Positions 1,251 through 19,008 of a DNA stretch of 64,000 nucleotides are shown piece by piece (positions within the stretch are counted from its first letter, which is position 1; each line of letters begins with the position of its first letter). This DNA is from Cellvibrio sp. KY-GH-1. Lineage in GTDB: Bacteria > Pseudomonadota > Gammaproteobacteria > Pseudomonadales > Cellvibrionaceae. The notes beneath the pieces were generated by a model, which worked only from the letters and a program-made list of their open reading frames with translations, did not search any database and was not told the origin of the DNA. Position numbers and translations under genes: made by a program. The stretch covers positions 4,423,501 through 4,487,500 of the forward strand of contig NZ_CP031728.1 of NCBI RefSeq assembly GCF_008806975.1, read 5' to 3'.

Positions 1251-1787
1251 ATGACAGAGGTAGCACTGGCTAACAAACACATTTTGGCGCTGATCATCAG
1301 CGGCGTTTTGGCGGCGATTGCGGTTGCTTTTCTGTTAGTGCGCAATCGCAATTTGAGTCGAGCATTGCAGAATACAAGGTCTGCAATCCAAATGAATTCG
1401 GTAGCACATTTGATTCAGGAGGTGCCTAATCCTTCAGATGTGCAGCAAAAGGAACTGGTTGAAAAGTTGGTGGTGTTTATGGAGCAGAACAAGCCTTATC
1501 TGGAATCCCATATCACGGTTGAACGTCTGGCTAACAAATTAAATGTTTCGCCCAAATTGTTATCCAGCACTATTAACAGCCAGCTTCATGTGAATTTTTT
1601 TGAGTTGATAGGTAATTACCGGGTGGCGGAAGCCAAAAAGCGGTTGGCCGATGAAGAGCTGCGCCAAAAATCTATCAGCGAAATTATGAAAAGCTGCGGC
1701 TTTAATAGTAAGTCGGTATTTAATCAGGCCTTTAAAAAATCTGTTGGTGTTACGCCCAGCCATTATCGCCAACAGCATTTGCACTAA
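1251..1787 (+). CDS. AraC-family regulator with a single N-terminal membrane anchor
   Basis: 178 residues. Residues about 10-28 form one hydrophobic segment followed by RNRN, predicting a one-pass inner-membrane anchor with the rest in the cytoplasm. Residues about 68-175 are an AraC/XylS two-helix-turn-helix domain, including NFFELIGNYRVAEAKKRL and CGFNSKSVFNQAFKK. The linker is short and there is no sugar-binding cupin domain. Its DNA-binding part is clearly the same subfamily as the C-terminus of the seven-TM regulator at 20011-21207, so this may be a shortened relative. It lies directly upstream of the TonB receptor, which makes that receptor the likely target (inference). The start is ATG at 1251 with GTAGG upstream. 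Confidence 0.8.
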   Translation: MTEVALANKHILALIISGVLAAIAVAFLLVRNRNLSRALQNTRSAIQMNSVAHLIQEVPNPSDVQQKELVEKLVVFMEQNKPYLESHITVERLANKLNVSPKLLSSTINSQLHVNFFELIGNYRVAEAKKRLADEELRQKSISEIMKSCGFNSKSVFNQAFKKSVGVTPSHYRQQHLH

Positions 1788-1949
1788 AGCCGCTGCACGC
1801 TCCGTGTGACTAACGGTTTGATGGAAATGCAGGTTAATTCGATTTTAGTTGTTAATGATGTAAATGGAGTGTCCACAGAATTACGTATAACGCGGTTTGT
1901 TATAAGTGATCAGAGATTTAATACGAGAGAAAAAACCAAGGGGTTAGAT

Positions 1950-4900
1950 ATGTTTACAAGTAAAAACAAAATGACAGACATGTCGGGTAAGCGATTTAAA
2001 AAATCCTTGCTGGCTGTTTCGATCATGGCATTCACCATGCCAGCATTTGCACAAGACAGCAAAAAAGCCGATGAAAATCTGGAAGAAGTTGTTGTTACCG
2101 GTATGAAAAGCAGTATCGATTCTGCACAAGAATTGAAGCGTAATGCGGATACCGTAAAAGATGTAATTACTGCAACCGACATAGGTGCATTACCGGATAA
2201 ATCGGTTACTGAAGCATTACAACGTGTTCCTGGTGTAACCATCGAGCGCTTTGCTTCTTCTGATGACCCCAAGCACTATGCGGATGAAGGTACTGGCGTG
2301 TTGGTGCGCGGCCTTGACCGCGTGCGCTCGGAAATTAACGGCCGCGATGCGTTCAGTGCTAACCCCTGGGGTGGCTTGAGCTACGAAGATTTCCCGGCAG
2401 AATTGTTGGGTGCAGTGGAGGTTGTTAAAAACCAAACTGCTGACCTGATCTCTGGTGGTATCGCCGGTACTGTTAACCTGGTAACTCGCAAGCCATTTGA
2501 TTCAGATGAACAGTTACTTTCTTTCAGCGCTAAAGCCAACTACGGCGATTTCCGCGAAGAAGTGACACCATCTTTCTCTGCACTTTTTGCGGATAGTTGG
2601 GAAACCAGTGCTGGTAAGTTCGGCTTCCTGGTGGCAGGTTCTCAATCAGAATATAAATCTCGTGGTGACGGTGTGGGTGTAGGTAACTTCCACAGCCGTG
2701 GCCCGGTTGATACCTTCTCTTATGATGTCTGGGGTACTCCTGCTCCGGGTGTTGTTAAGGACAGTTATTCGCATCCTTGTATGCCAGAGGCAACCGATTG
2801 GCGCGCCTGTACCCCGGCACAACTTGCTGATGGTGCTAAGAAGTTCACCGCAGACGATGCTGCAGCTTACGTTCCGAAATATGAAGGTACTGCGATTACT
2901 GGTCAGCCTGATGGTGTGACTTACTACACTCCGGCACAGATCCACCTGAGCACCGCGGAAAATGACCGCGAGCGCACCGGTTTTACTACCTCGCTGCAAT
3001 GGGCTAACGCGGATGAGACGGTGACTGCGACCTTGGAGCATATTAATTCCAAAGCGTCTTTGGAATGGCAGGAGCACCGTGTTGGTCAAGCGGCCCAGGG
3101 TTTTAAAGGCTTTATGGCTAGCTCACACGACTGGCTGGATAAGTCTGCTGATGGTTACCCTCGCACCTTTGATTCAAATGGCTTCCTGACTTCAGGTGTT
3201 GGTGTAGGCATTAGCGGTGATGTGCCGCTGTTGTACATCACCCGTTGGAACTACAACGAAAATACCGTTGAAGATACCTCTTTCAATGTAACGCTGACTC
3301 CCAATGATCGTTTGAAAGTTGAGCTTGATTTCCAGCACATAGAATCTGAAAAACTGGTGCATAACTACAGCATGTCTGGCCAGACTCGTGGCGGTTCTGC
3401 TGCGGTAGGTAAATTGTTGCCTTACTATCTGGATTTGACTGGCAGTCGCCCTGCAATCGAATTCCTGAGCGATACCGATTTTACTGGCTGGATTGATCAA
3501 GCGGCTTTCCAACCGGAAGTATTTATCGGTTCAGGTATGCAACAGGAAGAGCTTAACAATGCCGATTCCGACAGCTTTAAAGTTGATGTGGAATATGCGT
3601 TGGACGGCGTAATTACAGCGGTTAAAGGTGGTGTGTATTACACCGATAAAACTCTGACTGTGCGCGATACCGAATACGCCGGCTGGTCTCCCATTTCTAC
3701 TCCCTGGGTAAACGAGCAACGCGTTGCTTCGGCTGCAGCGAATCGCCCGGATTTGTATGACCGTCTTGATTTCTCGGATTACTACAATGGCGACGTTCTG
3801 AGTGGCGGCGTGCAGAGCTTTATGTTCCCCTCACTTGAGTTGGTAAAAAATTATCCGCAATCGCTGCGTGATGGTTGTGCCGATGGCTGGTCAACAGTGG
3901 GTGATAGCGCGGGTAACGCCGCAGATGGTAGCGGTGGTTGTGCGATTCCTTACGAAGATATGGAAGGTCGCACAAGTCACTTTGCTGATCACGACGTAAG
4001 TGAATCCAACGAAAAACGCACAGAAGCTTATCTGCGCGGTGACTTCGAATTTGCAGACCTGTCGACTCCTATCAAAGGTAACTTCGGCCTGCGCTACGTG
4101 AACTATCAACTGGAATCTTCCGGCTTTGTGGTACTACCTCCAGAGACCAGTCGTGGCGGCGCGCAAACCGCTGGATTCCTGCAGTCCCAATACCCAAGTA
4201 TTTATGCGTTGGCTAATGGCGAATCCATGCCAAGCACGGTTGACGGCACTGACTACGACACAGTGTTGCCAAGCTTGAACGTGACCTTCGGTGTGACCGA
4301 TGATGTTATTGTGCGCTTTGGTGCATCGCAAGGTTTGTTCTACCCAAGCTTGACCGACACTCGCAATCGCGTGATCGTTGGTTTGACTGTGGATCCAAAA
4401 CTGCAAGACGAATCCAAACCACAAAGCGATACCACTAACCCGGTTATTGGCATTGACAGCGTTGCTCTTGATGCATCAGCCAGCAACCCGTACCTGCAAC
4501 CGGAAGAATCGGTTAACCTGGATTTGACTACCGAATGGTACTTTGCGAAGGCTGGCTCTGTAAGCGTTGGTCTGTTCCACAAAAAACTGGATAACATAAT
4601 TCGCAACAAACAGTTTGATTTGGACATTACCCAAGGTGGTGCGGCGCATACCCTCTCTGCTTATGGTCCAGCGAATACCGGTTCGGGCACCATTCGCGGT
4701 GTAGAATTTTCTTACTCACAGTTCTACGACATGCTGCCAGGTGCCTGGAGTGGTTTAGGTTTGCAGTTTAACTTCACCTATATTGACCAAAATGGATTGG
4801 AAGATCCTAATGGTGCGTTACCGCCAAGCACTCGCTTTAACTCTGCTGGTGAGCCAGTGGTGGACGAGCGCAACACCTTCCGTGTATTCAGCGGTTTGCC

Positions 4901-5237
4901 ACTGCAAGGTTACTCTGACGAGAACCTGAACCTGGTTGGTATGTACGAATACAACGACATTTCGTTCCGTCTGGCTTATACCTGGCGTTCTGAATACTTG
5001 TTGACCTTGCGTGAATCTGAGGACTTCTCTCCGGTTTATGCCAAGGCCGCCGGTATGCTGGATTCCAGCTTGTATTACAGCATCAATGAGAATTGGCAAG
5101 TTGGTATCGAAGGCAGCAACCTGCTGAACACAGAGACCAAAACCGAGTATCAAATGAACCAGGCGGGGGTAAGAACTGACGCGTTGAACTTCACTACTGA
5201 CCGTCGTTATGCGCTGAGCGTTCGTGCGAAATTCTAA
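1950..5237 (+). CDS. TonB-dependent outer-membrane receptor (chitin/GlcNAc locus)
   Basis: About 1095 residues from the ATG at 1950, chosen because AAGGGG precedes it and a signal peptide follows (charged start, hydrophobic core, PAFA cleavage near residue 34). An open frame reaches further upstream but gives a non-signal extension. The mature N-terminus carries a TonB-box-like EEVVVTG (about 45-51), then a plug domain with ALPDKSVTEALQRVPGVTIE, then a long barrel ending in aromatic KF. The size and plug sequence match the large TonB receptors of Xanthomonas, Caulobacter and Cellvibrio that import oligosaccharides. The tryptophan-halogenase/cupin genes downstream are typical companions of this receptor class. 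GlcNAc oligomers as ligand are inferred from the flanking GH20 and GH18 genes. Confidence 0.9.
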   Translation: MFTSKNKMTDMSGKRFKKSLLAVSIMAFTMPAFAQDSKKADENLEEVVVTGMKSSIDSAQELKRNADTVKDVITATDIGALPDKSVTEALQRVPGVTIERFASSDDPKHYADEGTGVLVRGLDRVRSEINGRDAFSANPWGGLSYEDFPAELLGAVEVVKNQTADLISGGIAGTVNLVTRKPFDSDEQLLSFSAKANYGDFREEVTPSFSALFADSWETSAGKFGFLVAGSQSEYKSRGDGVGVGNFHSRGPVDTFSYDVWGTPAPGVVKDSYSHPCMPEATDWRACTPAQLADGAKKFTADDAAAYVPKYEGTAITGQPDGVTYYTPAQIHLSTAENDRERTGFTTSLQWANADETVTATLEHINSKASLEWQEHRVGQAAQGFKGFMASSHDWLDKSADGYPRTFDSNGFLTSGVGVGISGDVPLLYITRWNYNENTVEDTSFNVTLTPNDRLKVELDFQHIESEKLVHNYSMSGQTRGGSAAVGKLLPYYLDLTGSRPAIEFLSDTDFTGWIDQAAFQPEVFIGSGMQQEELNNADSDSFKVDVEYALDGVITAVKGGVYYTDKTLTVRDTEYAGWSPISTPWVNEQRVASAAANRPDLYDRLDFSDYYNGDVLSGGVQSFMFPSLELVKNYPQSLRDGCADGWSTVGDSAGNAADGSGGCAIPYEDMEGRTSHFADHDVSESNEKRTEAYLRGDFEFADLSTPIKGNFGLRYVNYQLESSGFVVLPPETSRGGAQTAGFLQSQYPSIYALANGESMPSTVDGTDYDTVLPSLNVTFGVTDDVIVRFGASQGLFYPSLTDTRNRVIVGLTVDPKLQDESKPQSDTTNPVIGIDSVALDASASNPYLQPEESVNLDLTTEWYFAKAGSVSVGLFHKKLDNIIRNKQFDLDITQGGAAHTLSAYGPANTGSGTIRGVEFSYSQFYDMLPGAWSGLGLQFNFTYIDQNGLEDPNGALPPSTRFNSAGEPVVDERNTFRVFSGLPLQGYSDENLNLVGMYEYNDISFRLAYTWRSEYLLTLRESEDFSPVYAKAAGMLDSSLYYSINENWQVGIEGSNLLNTETKTEYQMNQAGVRTDALNFTTDRRYALSVRAKF

Positions 5238-5284
5238 TTAGCCGTTTCTATTTAGAAACAGTTAACTAGAGACTGTATAAAAAA

Positions 5285-5314
5285 GCGCGCAGCCTTGTTC
5301 TGCGCGCTTTTTTT
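5285..5314 (+). terminator. Rho-independent terminator after the TonB receptor
   Basis: GCGCGCAG (5285-5292) pairs with CTGCGCGC (5300-5307), followed by seven T. It separates the receptor from the halogenase genes, which are therefore either read-through or start from a promoter in 5315-5396. Confidence 0.85.
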
Positions 5315-5396
5315 ATGCTACATAAATACTGACACAAATCGGTAGATAAACATTCGTTAGAGTAGTATTCAAGAGCCAGCCAATTAGGCACTGACT

Positions 5397-6905
5397 ATGC
5401 AAAAGAACACCCTGAATTCCATCTGTATTGTTGGTGGCGGCACGGCGGGCTGGATGGCAGCAAGTCTATTGTCGTCGGCGTTACAAGGTAGCCGAATAAA
5501 CATTACCGTAATTGAATCGCCGGATATCGCCACTATTGGCGTGGGTGAATCTACCGTTCCATCAATCATGGATTTTCTGCGTGTTTGTCAAATCAACCTG
5601 AAAGAGTTTGTGGAAGCAACCTCGGCAACCTTCAAGCTGGGAATTCGCTTTGACGATTGGTTAAAACCCGGCGAACAATTTTTTCATCCGTTTGGTACAG
5701 TTGGTCAAAGTATCCACGGTTTTGAGTTCTATCAAGCCTGGTTAAAAACCTGTGCTGATGGCAATCGCACCCGTTGGGTCGATCACTCACCCTGCGCAGT
5801 CATGGCCGAAAACCGCCGTTTTATGTTGCGTCCGCCGCAACATCAGAACTGGGTGTTGCGTAGCTATGCACATGCCCTGCATCTGGATGCAATTTTAGCG
5901 GCGCGTTATTTACGTGATTTATCGCTGGCGCGCGGTGTAGAAAGAATCGAAGCAACTGTCATGAATGTTGTCGTTGACGAGCGACAGTTTATTAGCGCTC
6001 TGGAATTAACAGGCGGCGATACAATTACCAGCGATTTCTTTATTGATTGCACTGGCTTTAAAGGCATCTTGATTGAAGAGGCGTTAAAGGTCGGTTACGA
6101 GGATTGGACCGATTATTTACCTTGCAATCGCGCAATTGCGGTACAAACGACCAATACCGGTGAACCTTCACCTTTCACGCAAGCTAAGGCGCGTGATGCA
6201 GGTTGGACCTGGAAAATTCCGTTGCAGCATCGCACCGGCAATGGTTATGTGTATTCCAGTCGATATTGTTCTGATGACAAAGCGATTGATACCCTGTTAG
6301 GCGCGGTAGACGGCGAATTGCTCAGCGACCCGCGCGTGATTCCATTTACGACCGGGCGCCGAAAAAAAATATGGCACAATAACTGTTTGGCGCTAGGGCT
6401 TGCATCCGGATTTTTGGAACCCTTGGAGTCGACTGCGATTCATTTGGTGTATAAAACACTAGTTCATTTTATCCGATATTTTCCTGATTTGGATTTTGAG
6501 TCTCACACCGAGCAGGCATTTAATCAGAAAATAAATGCCGACTATCAAGAAATTCGAGATTTTATTATTTTGCATTACTGCACAACCCAGCGTGACGACA
6601 CTGACTTCTGGCGCTGGTGCCAGAGCATGCCTGTCCCTGATTCGTTGCAGGAAAAAATTCGCTTGTTCCGCGAGCGCGGGCAAATAGATCATTTACCAGG
6701 AGAATTTTTTACCAGCGACAGTTGGTGTTCGATTTTAGAGGGGATGAGTGTGCGTCCGAAAAAATACCATCCGTTAATGGATGCATTTGATAGCAAGATG
6801 TTAGCAAGAACCTTGCAGGAAACCGCACAAAATGTTTACCAGACGGTAATGCAAATGCCGAATCACTATGACTATATTCAGCAACACTGCCCTGCTAAAA
6901 AGTAG
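5397..6905 (+). CDS. FAD-dependent tryptophan-halogenase-family protein (first copy)
   Basis: 502 residues. The N-terminal FAD-binding loop reads IVGGGTAGWMAA (residues 11-22). Lys80 in TFKLGIRFDDW sits where PrnA has its catalytic Lys79. WTWKIP matches the family WxWxIP motif, and FLEPLESTAI supplies the conserved glutamate (Glu344). All the landmark residues of a flavin halogenase are thus present. Proteins of this class next to TonB receptors are common in Caulobacter, Xanthomonas and Cellvibrio, but their substrate is not established; a role on tryptophan is not implied. It forms a likely operon with the cupin gene (53 bases) and the second halogenase (31 bases further). No flavin reductase gene is nearby. 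Confidence 0.88.
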   Translation: MQKNTLNSICIVGGGTAGWMAASLLSSALQGSRINITVIESPDIATIGVGESTVPSIMDFLRVCQINLKEFVEATSATFKLGIRFDDWLKPGEQFFHPFGTVGQSIHGFEFYQAWLKTCADGNRTRWVDHSPCAVMAENRRFMLRPPQHQNWVLRSYAHALHLDAILAARYLRDLSLARGVERIEATVMNVVVDERQFISALELTGGDTITSDFFIDCTGFKGILIEEALKVGYEDWTDYLPCNRAIAVQTTNTGEPSPFTQAKARDAGWTWKIPLQHRTGNGYVYSSRYCSDDKAIDTLLGAVDGELLSDPRVIPFTTGRRKKIWHNNCLALGLASGFLEPLESTAIHLVYKTLVHFIRYFPDLDFESHTEQAFNQKINADYQEIRDFIILHYCTTQRDDTDFWRWCQSMPVPDSLQEKIRLFRERGQIDHLPGEFFTSDSWCSILEGMSVRPKKYHPLMDAFDSKMLARTLQETAQNVYQTVMQMPNHYDYIQQHCPAKK

Positions 6906-6958
6906 CGCCACTAATAAAATGATGCAACTGTGGATGTTGCTTTGGTGAGTAACACAAT

Positions 6959-7975
6959 ATGACGGCGTATAAACCTATTCCAGAATACCGCGAACTTGGC
7001 GCGCAGCAATTTTTTGCAGAAATAGCGCCTGCTCAGCAGCCTATCGTCATTCGAAACTTTGTCCAGTATTGGCCCGTCGTTGCAGCGGCAAAAAAGTCAC
7101 CGCAGGATTTTGCAGCTTACCTGCTGCGCTTTTACACCGGTAAAAAAGCCAGGATTTTCGTTGCACCTCCGGCGGCTAACAAACGTTTTTATTACAACAA
7201 TGATATGACCGATGTGAATTATCTGCGCGGGGAAGAGCGTGTGGATTTATTTTTAGGTCGTTTACTGGAGTTGATGGATCGGGACGTCTACCCGGCTATC
7301 TCCATTCAAAATTCTTCACCGGCGGACATATTGCCGGGATTGATTGCCGAAAATAAGTCCGATTTTTTCCCCGATGAAGAGCCCCACCTTTGGGTTGGCA
7401 ATGAGGGCATTGTCAGCGCTCACTACGACGGTGCAGACAATATTGCATGTGTTGTGGCAGGGCGTCGGCGCTTTGTGCTATTCGCCCCGGATCAAGTCGG
7501 TAATTTATACCCCGGTTCGCTAAATTTTACGCCTGCCGGCGCGCCCACCAGTATGGTCAATTTGAACGAGCCGGATTTCGAGCGCTATCCACTGTTCCAA
7601 ATCGCATTGGACAATGCCTATTCGGTAGAACTCGATCCTGGCGACGCCATTTTTATTCCCATGCTTTGGTGGCACCATGTGGAATCACTGGAAAAAGTAA
7701 ATGCGTTGATGAATTTCTGGTGGAATGGCTCCGCTGCGAAAAATGCAATCCCACCCAGCCCCATTGATAGTTTAAATATCGCACTGCTTGCCATGCGCGA
7801 TTTAACACCAAAACAGCGCAATGCCTGGCGGTGCCTTTTTGATCACTACTTATTCAAACAGGGTGTTGATCCTGCTGCTTATATTCCCGAGCATCAACAA
7901 CATTTACTAGGAAAAGTCTCGCTGGACTATGTGCGTGCTATCAAAGACTATTTTATTGAAAAATTAAAGAAGTAA
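6959..7975 (+). CDS. JmjC/cupin-8-like protein between the two halogenases
   Basis: 338 residues, no signal peptide. The core contains HYDGADNIACVVAGRRRFVLF, where His and Asp give the HxD iron-binding pair of 2-oxoglutarate oxygenases of the cupin-8 / FIH type. A second conserved histidine lies in IFIPMLWWHHVESL. The start of the fold (PIVIRNFVQYWPVV) also fits the family. Members hydroxylate proteins or small molecules; the substrate here is unknown. The position between two halogenase genes, with short gaps on both sides, suggests one modification unit acting with the TonB receptor system (inference). GGTGAG lies upstream of the ATG. Confidence 0.82.
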   Translation: MTAYKPIPEYRELGAQQFFAEIAPAQQPIVIRNFVQYWPVVAAAKKSPQDFAAYLLRFYTGKKARIFVAPPAANKRFYYNNDMTDVNYLRGEERVDLFLGRLLELMDRDVYPAISIQNSSPADILPGLIAENKSDFFPDEEPHLWVGNEGIVSAHYDGADNIACVVAGRRRFVLFAPDQVGNLYPGSLNFTPAGAPTSMVNLNEPDFERYPLFQIALDNAYSVELDPGDAIFIPMLWWHHVESLEKVNALMNFWWNGSAAKNAIPPSPIDSLNIALLAMRDLTPKQRNAWRCLFDHYLFKQGVDPAAYIPEHQQHLLGKVSLDYVRAIKDYFIEKLKK

Positions 7976-8006
7976 GCAGGCAGTCTAATCGCCCAATAGT
8001 GAATTA

Positions 8007-9521
8007 ATGAATATGAATAGCGAACAGCAAAAGCCAAAAAAAATCCTTATTGTCGGCGGCGGGACTGCAGGCTGGATGGCGGCAAATTTAATGGCTTCCC
8101 GCTGGCGGGATATTGAAGTTAGTCTGTTGGAATCGGCGGATATTGGTATTATTGGTGTGGGCGAAGGTTCAACACCGCATTTGAAATTCTTTTTTGATAC
8201 GGTGGGACTCGCTGAATCTGAATGGATGCCGCGTTGCAATGCGACCTATAAGAATGGAATTTCTTTTGCAGGCTGGTCTGCGATTCCCGGGTATGAATCT
8301 TATTTTCATCCTTTTCCGGCGCAGACTGATGACATGCTCACCGTTCCTCATTTTTTTAGCAGCATCAATGCGCGTATGCAGGGGCATGATGCAGTCGCAC
8401 ATCCAGACCACTATTTTTTAGAAACCTATCTCACCCGAGAAAATTTAGGCCCGATACCGAATGAAACTTTTCCATTTGGTGTCGCCTATGGATACCACTT
8501 CGATGCAACTCTGTTGGGGCAGTTTCTTGCAGAGACTGGCGTGAGTCGCGGGGTAAAAAGAATTATCGGTACTGTAACTGAGGTTGTGCTCGGACCCTAT
8601 GGCGCGATCGCGTCGCTTCGTCTGGATGATGGGAGTTTTATCGATTCCGATGTATTTATCGATTGCTCGGGTTTTAAATCCCTACTAATGCAAGGGGCAT
8701 TGAAGGCCAGTTACAAAAGTTTCAGCGATAATTTGTTTAACAACGCGGCCGTAGTGATGCCCAGTGAAATTTCTGCTGTTATTCCTCCTGAGACAAAATC
8801 AACCGCACTATCAAATGGTTGGGCATGGAAAATTCCGTTAACCAACCGGTTCGGAAATGGCTATGTTTATAGCGCAGACTACCTGACACCGGATCAGGCC
8901 GAGACAGAATTACGGCGACATTTGGGGCTGCTCGACAGCGATGTGGACGCCAGACATTTGCAAATGAAAGTTGGGCGCGTAGAAAAACACTGGGAGCAAA
9001 ATTGTCTGGCAGTCGGTTTATCGCAAGGCTTTATAGAGCCCTTGGAGGCTACGGCGCTCGCACTTTCGCTGGAAACGATTACGCGCTTTATGAGTTTTTA
9101 TGAGCGTGGTGAATTTACCAATGAATTTGCAGATGCTTTTAATAAAGAGATTAATGCAAAGTTTGATGGCGTTAGAGATTACATTGTTTGTCATTACAAA
9201 GTGAATCAGCGGCGCGATACTGATTATTGGCGAAACAATGCTGCTAACATGCATCTCTCAGATAGCCTTAGTAAAATTTTACATTTCTGGTGGAACAGTA
9301 AAGATTTTGCAAAAGACATGTATATGAATAATCTGACAGGGAGTTATCAGCCAAAATCCTGGGCTTGCTTATTGGCGGGCTATGGCGTTTTTCCTGCATT
9401 GAGCCAGAATTCAATGAACGATCAATACGCGTCAACGCAAAACATGGCGCAGTTGGCGGATTTTATTCGTCGATGTGGTCTGAATTTCAAATCACACAAC
9501 GAGCAACTGAATATTCGCTAG
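8007..9521 (+). CDS. FAD-dependent tryptophan-halogenase-family protein (second copy)
   Basis: 504 residues. It has the FAD loop IVGGGTAGWMAAN (16-28), Lys82 in ATYKNGISFAGW at the catalytic-lysine position, WAWKIP as the WxWxIP motif and FIEPLEATALAL with the conserved glutamate. Compared with the first copy, the EST after the proline is EAT, a change beside the chloride/flavin region. The two copies are only moderately alike, so they are old paralogs rather than a recent duplication. It is last in the 5397-9521 unit. Two ATGs two codons apart are possible starts and neither has a strong ribosome site. Confidence 0.87.
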   Translation: MNMNSEQQKPKKILIVGGGTAGWMAANLMASRWRDIEVSLLESADIGIIGVGEGSTPHLKFFFDTVGLAESEWMPRCNATYKNGISFAGWSAIPGYESYFHPFPAQTDDMLTVPHFFSSINARMQGHDAVAHPDHYFLETYLTRENLGPIPNETFPFGVAYGYHFDATLLGQFLAETGVSRGVKRIIGTVTEVVLGPYGAIASLRLDDGSFIDSDVFIDCSGFKSLLMQGALKASYKSFSDNLFNNAAVVMPSEISAVIPPETKSTALSNGWAWKIPLTNRFGNGYVYSADYLTPDQAETELRRHLGLLDSDVDARHLQMKVGRVEKHWEQNCLAVGLSQGFIEPLEATALALSLETITRFMSFYERGEFTNEFADAFNKEINAKFDGVRDYIVCHYKVNQRRDTDYWRNNAANMHLSDSLSKILHFWWNSKDFAKDMYMNNLTGSYQPKSWACLLAGYGVFPALSQNSMNDQYASTQNMAQLADFIRRCGLNFKSHNEQLNIR

Positions 9522-10099: not shown

Positions 10100-11752
10100 A
10101 TGGCAAATAACAACACCTTGAGGCAAACGATCATGACTTTTTCCAAAAATATTGCGCGCAAATTATTTCGTGCAAGCACCGCGTGCTTATTCATTACCAG
10201 TTCGCTGCTCGCCTGTGCGCAGACCACCAAAGTGGTTGGCTATATTCCATCCTACAAAAATATGCCGGCGGTTATTGATCGCACAGATTTAACCAAACTG
10301 ACCCATTTGAATTTATCGTTTCTGAATCCCAATGCCAGTGGCCTGGTGTTAAGTGGCGGCAACCCTGTGTGTATGGAGGGCGCTAGCGCTAACGATCTGC
10401 ATTATGTCGTCAATAAAGCACATCAGGCCGGCGTCAAAGTGTTGGTGTCCATTGCTGGTGGTGTTTTGCCGGCGTGTTCGGGCAATTGGCAAACCTTATT
10501 GCAACCGGCCAATCGCGCCACAGTGGTGAATAATTTATTGCAGTTTGTTAACACATTTAATTTAGATGGGTTGGATGTGGATATTGAAGGCGTGGTGTTA
10601 ACCAACATTGATAACGCTGGCAATTACACTCCGTTTATTCAGGCGCTACGTAATGGCTTGCCAGCAGGAAAATTATTGACCTCGGCAACGGCGTCTTATG
10701 TTGGCGGTATGGTTCCCGCCTCATCACTGCAATATTTTGATTTTGTAAACATCATGTCCTATGACGCGATTGGTCCGGGCTGGGGGCAGGCTGGTGCAGA
10801 GCATTCACCTTATTCCATGGCAGTATCGGATATTAATATTTGGAAAGCGCGCGGACTGACCAAACAAAAATTGGTCTTGGGTGTGCCATTTTACGGTTAT
10901 GGATTTAATGGTTATGCCGCTGCTTATGATTACAATTCAATCGTCAATCAATTCGGCGCAAGCGCTGCGCAAACAGATGTGATTGGTACACGCTGCGCCG
11001 GTTGCAGTTACATTACGTACAACGGTATTCCCACTATTCGTAGTAAAACCCAACTCGCGTTGCAAGAAGGGGCGGGAGTGATGATCTGGGAGTTGTCGCA
11101 AGATGTGGCGGGAGCTAATAGTTTGCTCGCGGCCATTCACAGCCAAATAGGCGGAGGCAACTCCAGCAGCTCATCAACTGCGAGTGGCTGCCCGGCCTGG
11201 GTAAGCGGCAAACAATATTATGCGGGCAATAAAGTCAGTTATCAGGGCGGTTATTACATCGCTGAATACGACAACCCCGGCTACATTCCTACGGTGAGCA
11301 CGTATTTCTGGGAGCCCATTAGTGCGAGCGCTTGCGGTGGTACTTCCTCCTCCAGTTCTTCAACTGCTGTATTTACCAAATTAATTCAAGCTGAAGCCTA
11401 CACCTCTATGAGCGGCGTGCAACTTGAAACTACTACCGATACTGGCGGTGGGCAAAATGTAGGTTGGATTGATGCGAATGACTGGATGGCCCACGCCAAC
11501 GTTAATTTCCCCAGCAGTGGCACCTACCGCGTGGAATATCGTGTAGCTAGCCCGAGTGGAGCGAGCCTGTCGCTGGATTTAAATGCCGGTTCTATCCAGT
11601 TGGGGCAAGTCACTATTCCGGCAACTGGCGGTTGGCAAAATTGGACCACTGTTTCCCATACGGTCACTATCAATGCCGGCACCTATAGTGTGGGGATTTT
11701 TGCCGCGCAGGGTGGCTGGAATATCAATTGGTTGCGATTCACTAAATTGTAA
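10100..11752 (+). CDS. GH18 chitinase with CBM5/12 and CBM6 modules
   Basis: 550 residues. A signal sequence ends at LLACAQ, so this is either a secreted protein or, by the LLAC lipobox-like site (Cys39), a lipoprotein. The GH18 barrel spans about 42-350 and carries DGLDVDIE, the DxxDxDxE catalytic motif with Glu163 as acid/base. A Ser linker (about 354-360) leads to a CBM5/12 chitin-binding module with CPAWVSGKQYYAGNKVSYQG. A second Ser linker leads to a CBM6 with GGGQNVGWIDANDWM. The enzyme should cleave chitin outside the cell or at its surface; CBM6 on a chitinase is unusual and may bind a co-polymer. ATG at 10133 is an alternative start that still keeps the signal. Confidence 0.92.
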   Translation: MANNNTLRQTIMTFSKNIARKLFRASTACLFITSSLLACAQTTKVVGYIPSYKNMPAVIDRTDLTKLTHLNLSFLNPNASGLVLSGGNPVCMEGASANDLHYVVNKAHQAGVKVLVSIAGGVLPACSGNWQTLLQPANRATVVNNLLQFVNTFNLDGLDVDIEGVVLTNIDNAGNYTPFIQALRNGLPAGKLLTSATASYVGGMVPASSLQYFDFVNIMSYDAIGPGWGQAGAEHSPYSMAVSDINIWKARGLTKQKLVLGVPFYGYGFNGYAAAYDYNSIVNQFGASAAQTDVIGTRCAGCSYITYNGIPTIRSKTQLALQEGAGVMIWELSQDVAGANSLLAAIHSQIGGGNSSSSSTASGCPAWVSGKQYYAGNKVSYQGGYYIAEYDNPGYIPTVSTYFWEPISASACGGTSSSSSSTAVFTKLIQAEAYTSMSGVQLETTTDTGGGQNVGWIDANDWMAHANVNFPSSGTYRVEYRVASPSGASLSLDLNAGSIQLGQVTIPATGGWQNWTTVSHTVTINAGTYSVGIFAAQGGWNINWLRFTKL

Positions 11753-13170: not shown

Positions 13171-16100
13171 ATGATCAAAACCAGAGGTATCACTACCCGC
13201 AAAAAGGCGTTGGTGTTGGCCATAGGCTGCGCGCTTGCTGGCGTCCAGGCTTATGCCCAAGATCAAACCACCAACCCCGAAACAGACGAGGCAATCGAAG
13301 AGGTACTGGTAAAAGGTGTACGCGCCTCCCAGGCTAAAGCGATTGATATCAAACGTGAATCTACCACCGTAGTGGATTCAATCGTGGCCGAAGATATCGG
13401 CAAACTGCCAGACACCACCATCACCGACTCGCTGCAGCGGGTTACCGGTGTGCAAATTACACGTGAGGCCAATGAAGGTACCAGTTTGAACGTGCGTGGT
13501 ATGCCGCAGGTGCTGACGACGTTAAACGGCGAACAATTTCTTAGCCCATGGACAATTACCGGAGTGGGAGCCAATTATTCGGATGTTCCAGCGGGATTGA
13601 TCTCCGGGGCAGATGTGTATAAATCTCAATCCGCGAATTTATTGGCTGGTGGTATTTCTGGTCTTGTGGATTTAAAAACCTTGAGCCCTTTGACGTTGAA
13701 GGAATGGATGGTGCGTGCGCGCATTGAAGGTTCAATCGGCGATATGTCTGATAAAGAAACTAATAAGGATGGCTCTACCAGTACGCGCAATCCTGATCAC
13801 AATGTCAGTATTTTCGTTGGCAATAATTTTGATGATGTGTTTGCGTTTACTCTTTCCGGATTTAATTCAACGACCTATAACGCCAATTATTCCATGTGGG
13901 AAAATGCGCGTTTGGCGTTCCTTGATCGTCGCGGTGGAACTCCGCGCGACCCGCTGGATTTTGATGGTGACGGCGATACTGTTGGTGATTGGTATTTAAC
14001 CCCGGAATCTTTCAGTGCAAAAAGCAATTATATGGATCGCGAACGTGAAGGCGGTGCATTTACGTTTGAATCCAATGTCGCAGAAGGTTTTACCCTGCGC
14101 GGCGATGTGTTCTATACCAGCATGGCGCAATATGATCGCGGCGTCAGTGTAGGATTTAATGCATCTACCAATCCTAATTATTACGAAGTTAATGGCGTTC
14201 GCGCTCCTCGCCCTGGAACCAATGACACCATCATTGGCTATGACGAGCAGTTGTACAATGTATTGCTGCCAGAAAGTGAGTTTGGCGATAGCGTCGATTT
14301 TAGCTATGTCGATAAAAATGGTGTGACGCAAAATAGAAGTTTACATGCATTGAAAGTTGCACGCGTTGATGCGGCAGATTTCCAAACAAGTTCTACCAAC
14401 GAAAGTAATCGTACTGGCGCACTTAACACCAACTTGCAATTGAAATACACCAATGGTGATAACTTTGATGCAAGTGTGCGTTACATTTATGCGGAAGCAG
14501 AAAAACATTATCGAAAAGCAACTTTCCAGCAGGGAACTCCTGCGTGGTTGTGGGTCGATGAAGATGGTACTCCGGGGAAAGATCCGCTCAATATTTATAA
14601 CATCACTGTTGATTACTCGCGCGATATTCCTTCCTTTGCATTTGACGATGATCTTTCCAACGCAAATTTGCTGAAGCAATACCAGGGCTTTGCGGACGGC
14701 AGTGACACTAATGCAACGTTAAACGTTGCACGCGTCGATGCCAAATATTCTTTCAATGACAATTTCTGGGAATCAGTTGAGGGCGGGTTGCGCTGGGGTG
14801 AACGTCAGGCCGATTACACAAAGTTTTATTACGTCACACCGACTGCGCGCTACTCCAACTGGGATGATCCTCGTGTTCCGGTAGACAAGCGTTACAAGTT
14901 GCGAACGGGCAATCAGATTTGGCAAAAATATCCAGAGTGGCGCAAGTTTGAATTTGCTGAAGAGCCAACCGCATTGTTGGAAAACGGTTTGGTCGATAAT
15001 GGTTTCTCAGCTGCTAACACTACGGTATTTACCGATTTCGGTCCCATTAAAGGTTTTGAAAATGGTGTTTCTTCTCTGGATCCTTCCGAGTGGGACAATC
15101 CGCTGGCATTCCTTAATAAATTGTACCCGGGCACTAAAACAGCCAATGACCCTGGCTACACCTATGATGTAACTGAAGAAACCACAACAGCATTTGCACA
15201 AGTCAATTTCAACAGCGAGGAAGGCATTGCAGGAATTCCTTTTAAAGGAAATTTTGGTGCCCAGTTTGTTCGGACTGATCGCACAGTTATTCGCGCTGTA
15301 GTACCCGATGTTTTGGATAAATACAATTCCATCGGTTATGACGACTGGCAAAAAATTGCTTTTGTTGCTGAAACAGAAACTATCGAACACTCCTTTAATG
15401 ATGTGTTGCCCTCACTCAACTTGAACTTCTTCCCACATGATGATGTGGTGGTTCGTGTTGGTGCCTCAAAAACCACTTCACGTAATGATTTGAATAATGT
15501 GGGCTCGAGTTTGGTGCTCTGGTATCAGCAGTGCGACAAGTTGGATGAAAATGGCAATCCCATTCAGATTCCTGTTGGCGGCGGTCAAACTCGCAATGAA
15601 TCAGTGAGTTGTGTGGGTGGCGGTAATGACGATGGCAATCCTTATATCAAGCCCTGGTATGCCAACGTCTATAACACTTCTACTGAGTGGTATTTTGATG
15701 ACAATGCCATGCTTGCAGCAGGTTTGTTTTTGATTGAAGTAGAAACTTCTACTGAACAAACCCAGGAGATGCGTTCATTTACCGATGGCGATGGTATTGA
15801 TCGCGGTCGCACAGCCAACATCTACACCACCAGAAACGTGGGTGCTTCTGATCTGTACGGATTTGAAATGGGTTATAAGCAGCCATTTTCTTTCCTGCCC
15901 GGTGAAATCCTGAGCTCTACCGGTGTGGAGTTCAACTACACCTATTCACGTAGTAAATCCAACAACATTGATATTGAAGGCAATGCATTGCCATTACCTT
16001 CCAATTCAGAACATCAATCCAACTTGATCCTTTGGTATGACCGCGATGGCTTGAACTTGCGCTTGGCGTACAACTGGCGCAGTGAGGAATATTTGGGGCG

Positions 16101-16332
16101 CGTTGGTTTGAATACCAATGCTGCAGAACTCAATCTGGGTAACTGGTTGGAAGCAACTGGCTATCTGGACTTTTCCGCTAACTATTGGGTTAACGACCAC
16201 CTTGAATTCAGTTTTAACGGGGCCAACCTGACAGGCCAGAACCGTCGAAGCTACGCACAGATGACGGATCAATTCCAGTCGCTGTGGGTACAGGAGCGTC
16301 GTTATACCTTGGGTATGACTGTAAAACTTTAA
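13171..16332 (+). CDS. TonB-dependent outer-membrane receptor paired with GH5-like lipoprotein
   Basis: 1053 residues with ATG at 13171 behind AACGAGGAAG. The signal peptide ends at AYA near residue 29. A TonB-box-like EEVLVKGVRA (about 43-52) is followed by a plug with GKLPDTTITDSLQRVTGVQI and a barrel ending RRYTLGMTVKL. It belongs to the large oligosaccharide-importing receptor class, like the receptor at 1950-5237, but the two are divergent and will have different ligands. The next gene, only 75 bases downstream with no terminator between, encodes a surface lipoprotein with a mannanase-like fold, so mannan- or glucomannan-like oligosaccharide is the best ligand guess (inference). Confidence 0.9.
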   Translation: MIKTRGITTRKKALVLAIGCALAGVQAYAQDQTTNPETDEAIEEVLVKGVRASQAKAIDIKRESTTVVDSIVAEDIGKLPDTTITDSLQRVTGVQITREANEGTSLNVRGMPQVLTTLNGEQFLSPWTITGVGANYSDVPAGLISGADVYKSQSANLLAGGISGLVDLKTLSPLTLKEWMVRARIEGSIGDMSDKETNKDGSTSTRNPDHNVSIFVGNNFDDVFAFTLSGFNSTTYNANYSMWENARLAFLDRRGGTPRDPLDFDGDGDTVGDWYLTPESFSAKSNYMDREREGGAFTFESNVAEGFTLRGDVFYTSMAQYDRGVSVGFNASTNPNYYEVNGVRAPRPGTNDTIIGYDEQLYNVLLPESEFGDSVDFSYVDKNGVTQNRSLHALKVARVDAADFQTSSTNESNRTGALNTNLQLKYTNGDNFDASVRYIYAEAEKHYRKATFQQGTPAWLWVDEDGTPGKDPLNIYNITVDYSRDIPSFAFDDDLSNANLLKQYQGFADGSDTNATLNVARVDAKYSFNDNFWESVEGGLRWGERQADYTKFYYVTPTARYSNWDDPRVPVDKRYKLRTGNQIWQKYPEWRKFEFAEEPTALLENGLVDNGFSAANTTVFTDFGPIKGFENGVSSLDPSEWDNPLAFLNKLYPGTKTANDPGYTYDVTEETTTAFAQVNFNSEEGIAGIPFKGNFGAQFVRTDRTVIRAVVPDVLDKYNSIGYDDWQKIAFVAETETIEHSFNDVLPSLNLNFFPHDDVVVRVGASKTTSRNDLNNVGSSLVLWYQQCDKLDENGNPIQIPVGGGQTRNESVSCVGGGNDDGNPYIKPWYANVYNTSTEWYFDDNAMLAAGLFLIEVETSTEQTQEMRSFTDGDGIDRGRTANIYTTRNVGASDLYGFEMGYKQPFSFLPGEILSSTGVEFNYTYSRSKSNNIDIEGNALPLPSNSEHQSNLILWYDRDGLNLRLAYNWRSEEYLGRVGLNTNAAELNLGNWLEATGYLDFSANYWVNDHLEFSFNGANLTGQNRRSYAQMTDQFQSLWVQERRYTLGMTVKL

Positions 16333-16407
16333 TGAGTGCCGCTGCAAAAAATAAATCGAAAGCGCAGTTAAACACGGCAACCTTTTAATACAGTTTGGAG
16401 TTTTATT

Positions 16408-19008
16408 ATGAAATTTAAATTTAGTTACATGGCGCTCTTTATGAGTAGCTTGCTGTTGCAGGCATGCGGTGGCGGTGGTTTGGCGGGCGATGAAAAAGAC
16501 AGTACCGATCCATTAATTCCTGAGCCGGTTGTTGATGATGGTTCTGATCGTCCGCGTCCATCGGAATCAACCCCTTTTATTAAGGCAGATGGCTGGTTAT
16601 TGAAGGATGTTGCGGGGCAATCAATATTTTTGCGCGGCGCCAATATTTTATTTGGCGATAAACCTCTGGATCGAATCAAAAATATTACTCCGGTAGCAGA
16701 AATTGGTTCAAACGTTGTGCGTCTGCAAGTGAAGAAAACGACACGTAAAGAAGAGCTGGAAGGTGCGCTTGTCGATATCGTCAGCAAAAATATGGTGGCG
16801 TTGGTTAGCCTGGTTGATGATTCGCTGACTTGTAAAGATGATGCGGACGAATTGGATAAAGTGGTTACTGATTTGTGGTTGGGTTCATGGTTGGAAGTTA
16901 TTGCACAAGACCGTTTTCAACCGCATCTTATGATTAACGTGGCTAATCAATGGGGCCCCAAAAGCGTTTTCACAGAAAATACTGTTGGTTATGGTGATTA
17001 TCTGGAGGCGCATAAGCTGGTAATTCGCGAGTTCCGTAAAGCGGGTTTGAAAGTGCCCCTGGTTATCGATGCCGCTGGTTGCGGTCAGGATTATTATTCA
17101 TTTACTGCCGGACGTGCGCGTGAACTCAAAGCAGCCGATACACAGGGAAACCTGGTGCTATCGGTTCACGGGTTTGGTGAAACCTGGAGCAGTAACGACA
17201 AGGTTCGTACAGCCCTGACCAGTTTGGCAAAAACCAATATGCCGATCGTGATGAGTGGTTTTGGCGGCTCTGCTGTTGCTGCGCAAAATGAAGTGGATCA
17301 CTTGGGTATCATGCGAAAAGGTTATGGTGATGGTGGTTTGGGGTTCGCTATTCCCTGGCAATCAGCAGAAGATAAAGCTGCCTATTCAATGACACTGGAT
17401 GAACCATTATTTCTACGTGGAGCCAGTATTCGCACGGATGTATTTGTACCCAAGTCTTACGTAGATAACGGTAAGCTAGGTATTGTCATGTATTTAAAAG
17501 ATGCTAATGGACGCTACGCGAATACCGGATGGAATCAGGCCAGCAGCATGAATTTTGATGCCTGGAATAAACTGAACTTTAAATTGACCAGTGTGGATTA
17601 TTTAAAAGGCATTGGCGCTTATGTAGAAGACGGTTTTGATTTAACAGCGGTACAAAAGATTGGTTTTGAAATTGTCGCCAATGGAAAACCGGCAGATGTC
17701 AGTGGTAATTTAATTTTTGACAACCTCACGGTATTCCCTGGTATTCCACCAGTTTATATCGCTAATTTTGATACCACTAACGAAGAGTGGGAAACCCATT
17801 GGGGACCATTCACTAGCGCTGCTGCCGATGGAAAATTAACAATTCTACCGACGGGTGGGGGTGACGGCGCCGTAGACCTGCAAGGTTGGAAAGCGCCAAG
17901 TTTGTACTCGATTCCACTGGGCACAGAATTGGAAGTGGTTTTGCGCGTATTTGTTCCAGCTTCCTATGCAAATGAAACTAACGCCTGGATGAAAATATTT
18001 GGCCAGTTTGGTCCCGCGTGGGAATTTTGGCGGGATGTCCCTGCACAGAGTTTTGCGGGACTCACTGCAGGTGCCTGGAATACGGTGAAATTTAATGTCG
18101 ACTTCAGTGATGTAAGCCCATCGCAAGCATTTGGTATTCAATTGGGTGGTTTTAGTGGTGCGAAATCTGAACCGCTTTTGGTTGATTTTGTTGAAATTAA
18201 TGATCCGAATAAAACCAATACCAAAATTGTAAATGCCTTGCAATTAGGCTCCAGTTTTAATGATGGAAGCGCCGATAACTATTCGGTTTATTGGGACAAG
18301 ATGGCGAATATGGCGATTGTTAATGGAGTGATGGAAATTACCAATACCAATACTAGTGGTACAGCGGACGTCGCTATTGGGAAAGCAGATATCGCCAACA
18401 AATCACTTAACTTTGAAGGCCCGGTCACTGTCAAAATGAAAGTGTTTGTACCTGAAAGTTTTGCCGGGACAGATTTTTACTTCCAAACATTGATACAAGA
18501 TTCCGACTGGTCTCCGGATTTTACTGTGCAATGGAAGATCGATAAATTTACCCCCGGCGACTGGACTGAATTCACCTACACCGTAGATTCTTTCCCTGAT
18601 GGATTTAATAGAAAAGGTATTATGAATAATTTTGTCATCATGTTTGGCGGCAACGTTAATGGCACTATCAAAGTTGACGATGTCGAGATATACGGCAACG
18701 TTGAAGTTGAAGACTCCCAACCCATCCTTACTGTTGGTTTTGAATCCCAAGCTGAAGCCGATGTGTTTAAATTTGACTATGCCAGTGGCGGATTAAGTGA
18801 AGGTGTATTGGCAGGCGCGAATGCCAAAGCTTGGGTTAATAGCACATTACCGTTCGGCTGGATTGCCAATAGCTGGATTGGTGATGGCGGTTACGATATG
18901 TCGACATCGGAAAGTGCTGTGACCCTAACGCCAAGAGGAGAAGAAATTGCGAATGGGGAGTTTGGAATAAAAATGACAAGTTTGCCGGCTAGCTTTGTTA
19001 AGCCTTAA
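16408..19008 (+). CDS. outer-membrane lipoprotein with an apparently inactive GH5-like domain and beta-sandwich modules
   Basis: 866 residues. LLLQACGGGG is a lipobox (Cys20), followed by an Asp/Pro-rich spacer to about residue 55. Residues about 55-330 follow a GH5 mannanase-like barrel: WLLKDVAGQSIFLRGANI, MINVANQWGP, LVLSVHGFGETW and PIVMSGFGG. At the acid/base position, where GH5 enzymes read NE, there is Asn-Gln (Gln181). At the nucleophile position, where they read GEFG, there is Ser-Gly-Phe-Gly (Gly284). His254 is kept. After it come three beta-sandwich modules of about 140 residues, two of which contain a VFVPxSY/F motif, and a shorter fourth piece ending at KP. No catalysis is expected; a glycan-binding role beside the TonB receptor is inferred. 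Confidence 0.78.
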   Translation: MKFKFSYMALFMSSLLLQACGGGGLAGDEKDSTDPLIPEPVVDDGSDRPRPSESTPFIKADGWLLKDVAGQSIFLRGANILFGDKPLDRIKNITPVAEIGSNVVRLQVKKTTRKEELEGALVDIVSKNMVALVSLVDDSLTCKDDADELDKVVTDLWLGSWLEVIAQDRFQPHLMINVANQWGPKSVFTENTVGYGDYLEAHKLVIREFRKAGLKVPLVIDAAGCGQDYYSFTAGRARELKAADTQGNLVLSVHGFGETWSSNDKVRTALTSLAKTNMPIVMSGFGGSAVAAQNEVDHLGIMRKGYGDGGLGFAIPWQSAEDKAAYSMTLDEPLFLRGASIRTDVFVPKSYVDNGKLGIVMYLKDANGRYANTGWNQASSMNFDAWNKLNFKLTSVDYLKGIGAYVEDGFDLTAVQKIGFEIVANGKPADVSGNLIFDNLTVFPGIPPVYIANFDTTNEEWETHWGPFTSAAADGKLTILPTGGGDGAVDLQGWKAPSLYSIPLGTELEVVLRVFVPASYANETNAWMKIFGQFGPAWEFWRDVPAQSFAGLTAGAWNTVKFNVDFSDVSPSQAFGIQLGGFSGAKSEPLLVDFVEINDPNKTNTKIVNALQLGSSFNDGSADNYSVYWDKMANMAIVNGVMEITNTNTSGTADVAIGKADIANKSLNFEGPVTVKMKVFVPESFAGTDFYFQTLIQDSDWSPDFTVQWKIDKFTPGDWTEFTYTVDSFPDGFNRKGIMNNFVIMFGGNVNGTIKVDDVEIYGNVEVEDSQPILTVGFESQAEADVFKFDYASGGLSEGVLAGANAKAWVNSTLPFGWIANSWIGDGGYDMSTSESAVTLTPRGEEIANGEFGIKMTSLPASFVKP

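Follow-up and report, generated by a model that had tools for sequence, protein, structure and literature searches.

A receptor-paired lipoprotein of Cellvibrio with a split, catalytically disarmed GH5_8 barrel and a probable role in glycan capture

What is a mannanase barrel kept for once both of its catalytic glutamates have gone? The question is raised by a lipoprotein gene of Cellvibrio sp. KY-GH-1, which lies in a stretch of 64,000 nucleotides (contig NZ_CP031728.1, positions 4,423,501 to 4,487,500; hereafter the window, meaning the whole stretch analysed). An initial annotation, made from the letters alone, took the product for a GH5 mannanase-like lipoprotein retained as a surface glycan-binding pseudoenzyme. 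Our data bear out its descent and its loss of catalytic residues, add a large insert and a partner receptor, and make it probable that the protein derives from a receptor-paired GH5_8 beta-mannanase and now serves as a non-catalytic lipoprotein for glycan capture.

A split barrel and its catalytic positions

The lipoprotein gene and its parts are as follows, all on the forward strand.

16408..19008, +: lipoprotein gene, 866 aa, split GH5_8 barrel with inserted beta-sandwiches (intact open reading frame, PDB alignments, AlphaFold2 model, VIA alignment)
16408..16467, +: lipoprotein signal peptide and lipobox LQAC with Cys20, GGGG after the lipobox (sequence)
16561..17328, +: barrel part 1, residues 52-307, beta1 to alpha7 (PDB alignments, AlphaFold2 model, VIA alignment)
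16948..16950, +: CAA, Gln181 at the acid/base position (PDB alignments, codon read, outgroup columns)
17257..17259, +: GGT, Gly284 at the nucleophile position (PDB alignments, codon read, outgroup columns)
17329..17748, +: insert, beta-sandwich 1, residues 308-447 (hhalign against sandwich 3, E 4.9e-19, and against sandwich 2, E 4e-13; model strands)
17749..18213, +: insert, beta-sandwich 2, residues 448-602, carbohydrate-binding module (CBM) fold (separate model, pLDDT 94.9; matches to CBM22, CBM27, CBM15 and CBM29)
18214..18717, +: insert, beta-sandwich 3, residues 603-770 (hhalign against sandwich 2, E 4.5e-43)
18718..18840, +: connector returning to the barrel, residues 771-811, homology unsettled (model)
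18841..19005, +: barrel part 2, residues 812-866, beta8 motif PFGWIANSWIG and alpha8 (phmmer; VIA model range 56-866)

Evidence that the fold is that of GH5_8 came from phmmer searches of PDB sequences, in which residues 50-298 match GH5_8 mannanases (1wky best, E 8.2e-11; also 4y7e, 3wsu, 4fk9 and 1bqc) and a second stretch, residues 816-859, aligns with 1wky 251-298, and from superposition of the predicted model on 2whj, 3jug and 1wky at 1.3-1.5 Å over 285-289 residues (VIA). The barrel frame named in the initial annotation is thus real, but it is not contiguous as in GH5_8 beta-mannanases: an insert of about 500 residues, of which the annotation made no mention, interrupts it between beta7 and beta8, leaving beta8 and alpha8 at the far C-terminus. 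From the nucleophile to the beta8 Trp the spacing is 526-739 residues in 83 family rows, versus 31-35 in eight canonical barrels. A circularly permuted sandwich 1 (769-800 placed ahead of 308-447) was tried and rejected, there being no clear gain (hhalign 77.9 versus 71.0 with sandwich 2, 103.0 versus 103.4 with sandwich 3).

No Pfam family, the SusD profile included, was found in the window protein up to E 10, and a SusD-like fold is absent among the 50 VIA matches listed for its model, deeper matches being possible. Cellulase (PF00150) matches all six relatives scanned with Pfam, SGBP_B_XBD lies above cut-off in the inserts of two of these six (P0043, P0052), and Mann_GBD_bact matches the inserts of some relatives.

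The two replacements, read from their codons, hold up on alignment. In four printed PDB alignments the N-E motif's Glu faces Gln181, and Gly284 falls at the nucleophile Glu site (where the 4y7e chain has Ala), and both columns are Glu in 8/8 outgroup mannanase barrels. The catalytic pair required of a GH5_8 beta-mannanase is absent. Gln181 is common to 13 of 85 non-identical relatives – a count that leaves out sequences with a 500-residue block identical to a kept one – and the exact Gln/Gly pair occurs in 12; because replacements recur across non-identical relatives, Gln181 and Gly284 are no sequencing accident. Conservation of this exact change in other Cellvibrio, which the initial annotation proposed as a check, is limited to the window's own clade; genus relatives elsewhere show Gly/Glu, Gly/Gly, Gly/Ser, Gly/Ala-type, Gly/Asp or Ala/Glu. 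Elsewhere in the cleft, rows of the Gln clade (n=13) have Arg105 (13/13), His254 (12/13) and Trp823 (12/13). Two acids, Glu190 (16975-16977) and Glu258 (17179-17181), lie near the cleft and are Glu in 12/13 Gln-clade rows; the commonest residues at these positions in other family groups are non-acidic.

A critical issue is whether such a gene is maintained. Constraint was measured as NG86 dN/dS on the single window-relative pair with unsaturated dS (G001 and G011), most other pairs being saturated. The N-terminal part of the barrel has a value of 0.022 (dS 0.46; the tail of the G011 copy, apparently broken in assembly, excluded); the insert stands at 0.111 and the partner receptor described below at 0.027. 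In a pair retaining both glutamates (L090/L091), barrel and insert come to 0.022 and 0.088, respectively. Judged from these few pairs, the dead barrel is under constraint as tight as that on a barrel with its catalytic residues. With the frame intact, constraint strong and the lipoprotein signal present (Cys20 is an invariant column in a 53-row alignment), the annotation's judgement that this is a kept pseudoenzyme and not a decaying one is sustained.

Catalytic states and receptor pairing across the family

Loss of both glutamates proves to be one end of a graded series. Both are kept in 24 of the 85 non-identical members; the acid/base alone is replaced in 29 (Gly 21, Ala 4, Lys 3, Asp 1) and both in 32 (Gln/Gly 12, Gly/Gly 7, Gly/Ala 6, Gly/Ser 5, Gln/Ser 1, Gly/Asp 1). 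Replacement of the nucleophile alone was seen in none of the 85. A maximum-likelihood tree was built for the barrel, both catalytic columns being masked and L057 and L058 left out, with eight canonical GH5_8 barrels as outgroup (99/100). Thirteen both-Glu rows, which include Catenovulum, Paraglaciecola, Neptunicella and Colwellia entries, branch off first (96/87), and further both-Glu rows come next. The fewest changes on this tree are three for the both-Glu state and six for the nucleophile. Since the backbone is weak in places (86/62, 80/62, 87/47), the acid/base may have been lost just twice, P0053, on a long branch, being nested in a both-Glu clade (100/96); mixed pairs (P0014/P0020, 100/99; P0018/P0025, 98/89) show that nucleophile loss is recurrent. 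Taken as a whole, the sequences suggest a mannanase disarmed stepwise, the acid/base being lost and then both residues.

An order-wide search found the family in at least 6 of 390 genomes, all within the window's taxonomic family, and a class-wide search in at least 1 of 369 (the genome itself), both counts being lower bounds as mostly two candidates were scored per genome; relatives also occur under the names Paraglaciecola, Catenovulum and Alteromonadaceae. Within the genus, 6 of 21 genomes have no match at E 1e-30. A contig search found no relative with P0046 as query and 31 loci with the alignment as query (L052-L064 match part of the query only and are not counted as split-family members); a plasmid search with the gene pair gave no match.

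The gene pair comprises the lipoprotein gene and, ahead of it, the following.

13171..16332, +: TonB-dependent receptor (TBDR), 1053 aa, partner gene (TIGR01782, 480 bits; Pfam Plug)
16397..16400, +: GGAG, ribosome-binding-like site, 7 bases ahead of the ATG (sequence)

The gap between the two genes is 75 bp, and a scan listed no terminator-like site within it; a Pfam search for a signalling domain on the TBDR found Plug alone. The same order holds across the taxonomic family: 33 lipoprotein copies occur in 32 of 144 genomes, and by coordinate matching 32 of the 33 have a TBDR match directly upstream on the same strand (partial in G003 and G140, where the remainder is visible in the fetched loci). 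The lone unpaired copy (G016) starts at base 1 of its contig, and it is also the exception among fetched distinct loci: in 34 of 35 the TBDR lies upstream, separated from the lipoprotein gene by -73 to +90 nt (mechanical ORF ends). Approached from the receptor, 41 places are listed at E 1e-200: the lipoprotein accompanies all 32 with 54-100% identity, and beside none of the nine at 51-53% is one listed. Copies with both glutamates are paired too (for example L040, L042, L045, L071 and L076), and receptor pairing thus most likely preceded disarming. In two loci a second TBDR, 47-48% identical to that of the window, stands in tandem upstream of the pair (L028:13374-16391; L031:13308-16307).

Proposed function and its rivals

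A lipoprotein encoded beside a TonB-dependent transporter is a feature of surface glycan-binding proteins (SGBPs); its place directly after the transporter is shared with SusD, which speaks to a similar way of working and not to membership. Glycan-binding-type domains, here three of CBM fold, are another SGBP feature. In the proposed mechanism the lipid anchor would fix the protein to the outer membrane with its body facing outward. Mannan-type chains would be caught by the CBM-like insert and held uncut by that insert, by the disarmed cleft or by the two together; separate mannanases elsewhere would do the cutting, and oligosaccharides could pass to the partner TBDR. Of the annotation's proposal that a glycan-binding protein had evolved from an enzyme, the enzyme descent is supported, and the binding role finds indirect support in CBM folds, the Pfam matches of relatives, the TBDR pairing and some mannan loci.

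The identity of the glycan is best approached through relatives. Genes neighbouring the pair were scanned in a chosen selection of loci, not a census. GH130 and N-acylglucosamine 2-epimerase-family genes occur in L037 (with an SSF symporter), L044 and L045, and an epimerase-family gene in L026; L040 has GH26 and a CE2-type esterase, L042 a GH26 with PF21253 domains and a GH18 gene near the pair, and L047 an alpha-galactosidase. Genes of these kinds are a well-established beta-mannan signature. The KY-GH-1 genome itself holds nine GH26 and two GH130 matches, L003, a GH5_8 protein in which both Glu motifs are present, and a three-barrel GH5 protein (P0054) whose middle GH5_8 barrel has both glutamates and a contiguous beta8. 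Mannan is the likeliest ligand, judged by family rather than by local context. A three-barrel protein of this description, 1785 aa long and bearing a CBM35 besides its GH5-type barrels (the middle one GH5_8 with both glutamates), is encoded near C1:3.28 Mb of this genome (L020:7345-12702, -); its gene has as neighbours a tryptophan-halogenase-like gene and a TBDR with 30% identity to that of the window.

Upstream of the pair in the window is a gene for a GH18 protein with CBM6 (10100-11752, +), and at the window edge an ORF with a short GH20 match of 71 residues (20-1078, +). Between them a second TBDR cluster (1251-9521, +) comprises an AraC-type regulator, a TBDR (1806-5237) and two tryptophan-halogenase-like genes (5397, 8007) flanking a Cupin_8 gene (6959).

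Several observations weigh against a mannan-capturing pseudoenzyme. The genes neighbouring the window's pair are GH18 and glutathione peroxidase genes, with no mannan genes among them. In the Gln clade Tyr256 has become Phe (13/13) and Asn180 is kept in 6/13 (His 6, Tyr 1), so the sugar cleft itself is altered too; the remaining both-lost rows have changed further, Tyr256 being Asp or Glu in 17/19. The constraint comes from one usable pair, and inclusion of the C-terminal barrel piece, from the apparently broken G011 tail, raises the barrel value to 0.099. Finally a comparable dead GH18 protein, BT1284, had no measurable binding to the glycans with which it was tested (PMC11180146).

That the window's clade binds chitin or some other glycan rather than mannan is unlikely: a chitin link is made possible by the GH18-CBM6 gene, which lies upstream of the pair in L022 as well as in the window, and finds a further echo in the GH18 gene of L042 and the GH20-like ORF, but the protein is of GH5_8 descent, mannan genes stand beside several relatives, disarmed ones included (L026, L037, L044), and the genome has its nine GH26 and two GH130 matches. 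A less improbable suggestion, though one we still doubt, is that contact with the TBDR is the main reason for keeping the dead barrel, which would serve as a SusD- or BtuG-like lid or docking part, while glycan is caught by the inserted CBMs only; it overlaps glycan capture and differs in the barrel's purpose. Pairing with the TBDR is strict in both-Glu and disarmed members alike, and in the one pair constraint on the N-terminal barrel matches that on the TBDR and exceeds that on the insert about fivefold; both-Glu barrels, however, are equally constrained, so the constraint need not stem from docking.

It is very improbable that hydrolysis persists through acids special to the clade such as Glu258 or Glu190: these are nearly constant in the Gln clade and never the commonest residue in other groups, but both canonical glutamates are gone, position 284 carries no acidic residue in the clade, and Glu258 is Thr in P0006. 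Least credible of all is the product of a decaying pseudogene, to which the loss of both glutamates and the genus genomes without a match might point; the frame is intact, Gln181 is present in every clade row, the partner TBDR is kept, and the constraint on the barrel led us to reject the idea. Glycan capture by a disarmed, receptor-paired mannanase remains the reading we prefer. A bolder version, possible but rather doubtful, is that a SusCD-like pair arose independently in Gammaproteobacteria: an active, receptor-mounted GH5_8 enzyme would have been disarmed stepwise and repeatedly into a lid or capture arm, its barrel docked on the receptor and its CBMs fishing for glycan.

If glycan capture is true, then one gene family in one neighbourhood displays the passage from enzyme to binding partner of a transporter (both glutamates, acid/base lost, both lost), and does so more than once; natural variants would allow the order of pseudoenzyme evolution, and what replaces SusD outside Bacteroidota, to be tested directly. 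It would also mark out database entries labelled cellulase or GH5 from which cutting is not to be expected.

Comparison with known systems

The protein very probably belongs to a group that has been noticed before. A GH5 survey (Aspeborg et al. 2012; PMC3526467) describes, in its section on an inactive subgroup, three lipoproteins on long branches, each combining a GH5_8-related module that seems to be inactive with a sizeable extra part. Compared by description and not by accessions, the window protein fits all stated features; the extra part is there called a C-terminal extension, whereas that of the window protein is an insert with beta8 and alpha8 behind it. That section of the survey mentions neither receptor pairing nor intact relatives nor the order in which the residues were lost (PMC3526467). 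In the literature searched, subscription papers being outside its scope, we found no description of these three features or of the split barrel, and recognised no other paper as describing the family.

With the GH5_8 beta-mannanases (2whj, 3jug, 1wky) the window protein shares its barrel fold; it differs in the replacement of both catalytic glutamates and in the interruption between beta7 and beta8. BtuG is a lipoprotein not known to be related to that of the window. The BtuB-BtuG system nonetheless offers, as reported, a parallel in that a TonB-dependent transporter has a dedicated surface lipoprotein (a surface site being likely for the window protein); it serves B12 uptake, and its complex has been demonstrated, that of the window pair being conjectural (PMC10404256). 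BT1284 and other GH18-like proteins of polysaccharide utilisation loci (PULs) are likewise catalytically impaired glycosidase folds, encoded in a PUL; they differ in being GH18, and the glycans tested gave no measurable binding (PMC11180146). The SGBPs of Bacteroidota, as portrayed for the levan utilisome, resemble the window protein in that the lipoprotein gene adjoins that of a TonB-dependent transporter and in their CBM-type domains; the window protein is built on a dead TIM barrel, no SusD-like gene lies between the pair, and the host belongs to the Gammaproteobacteria (PMC7618045).
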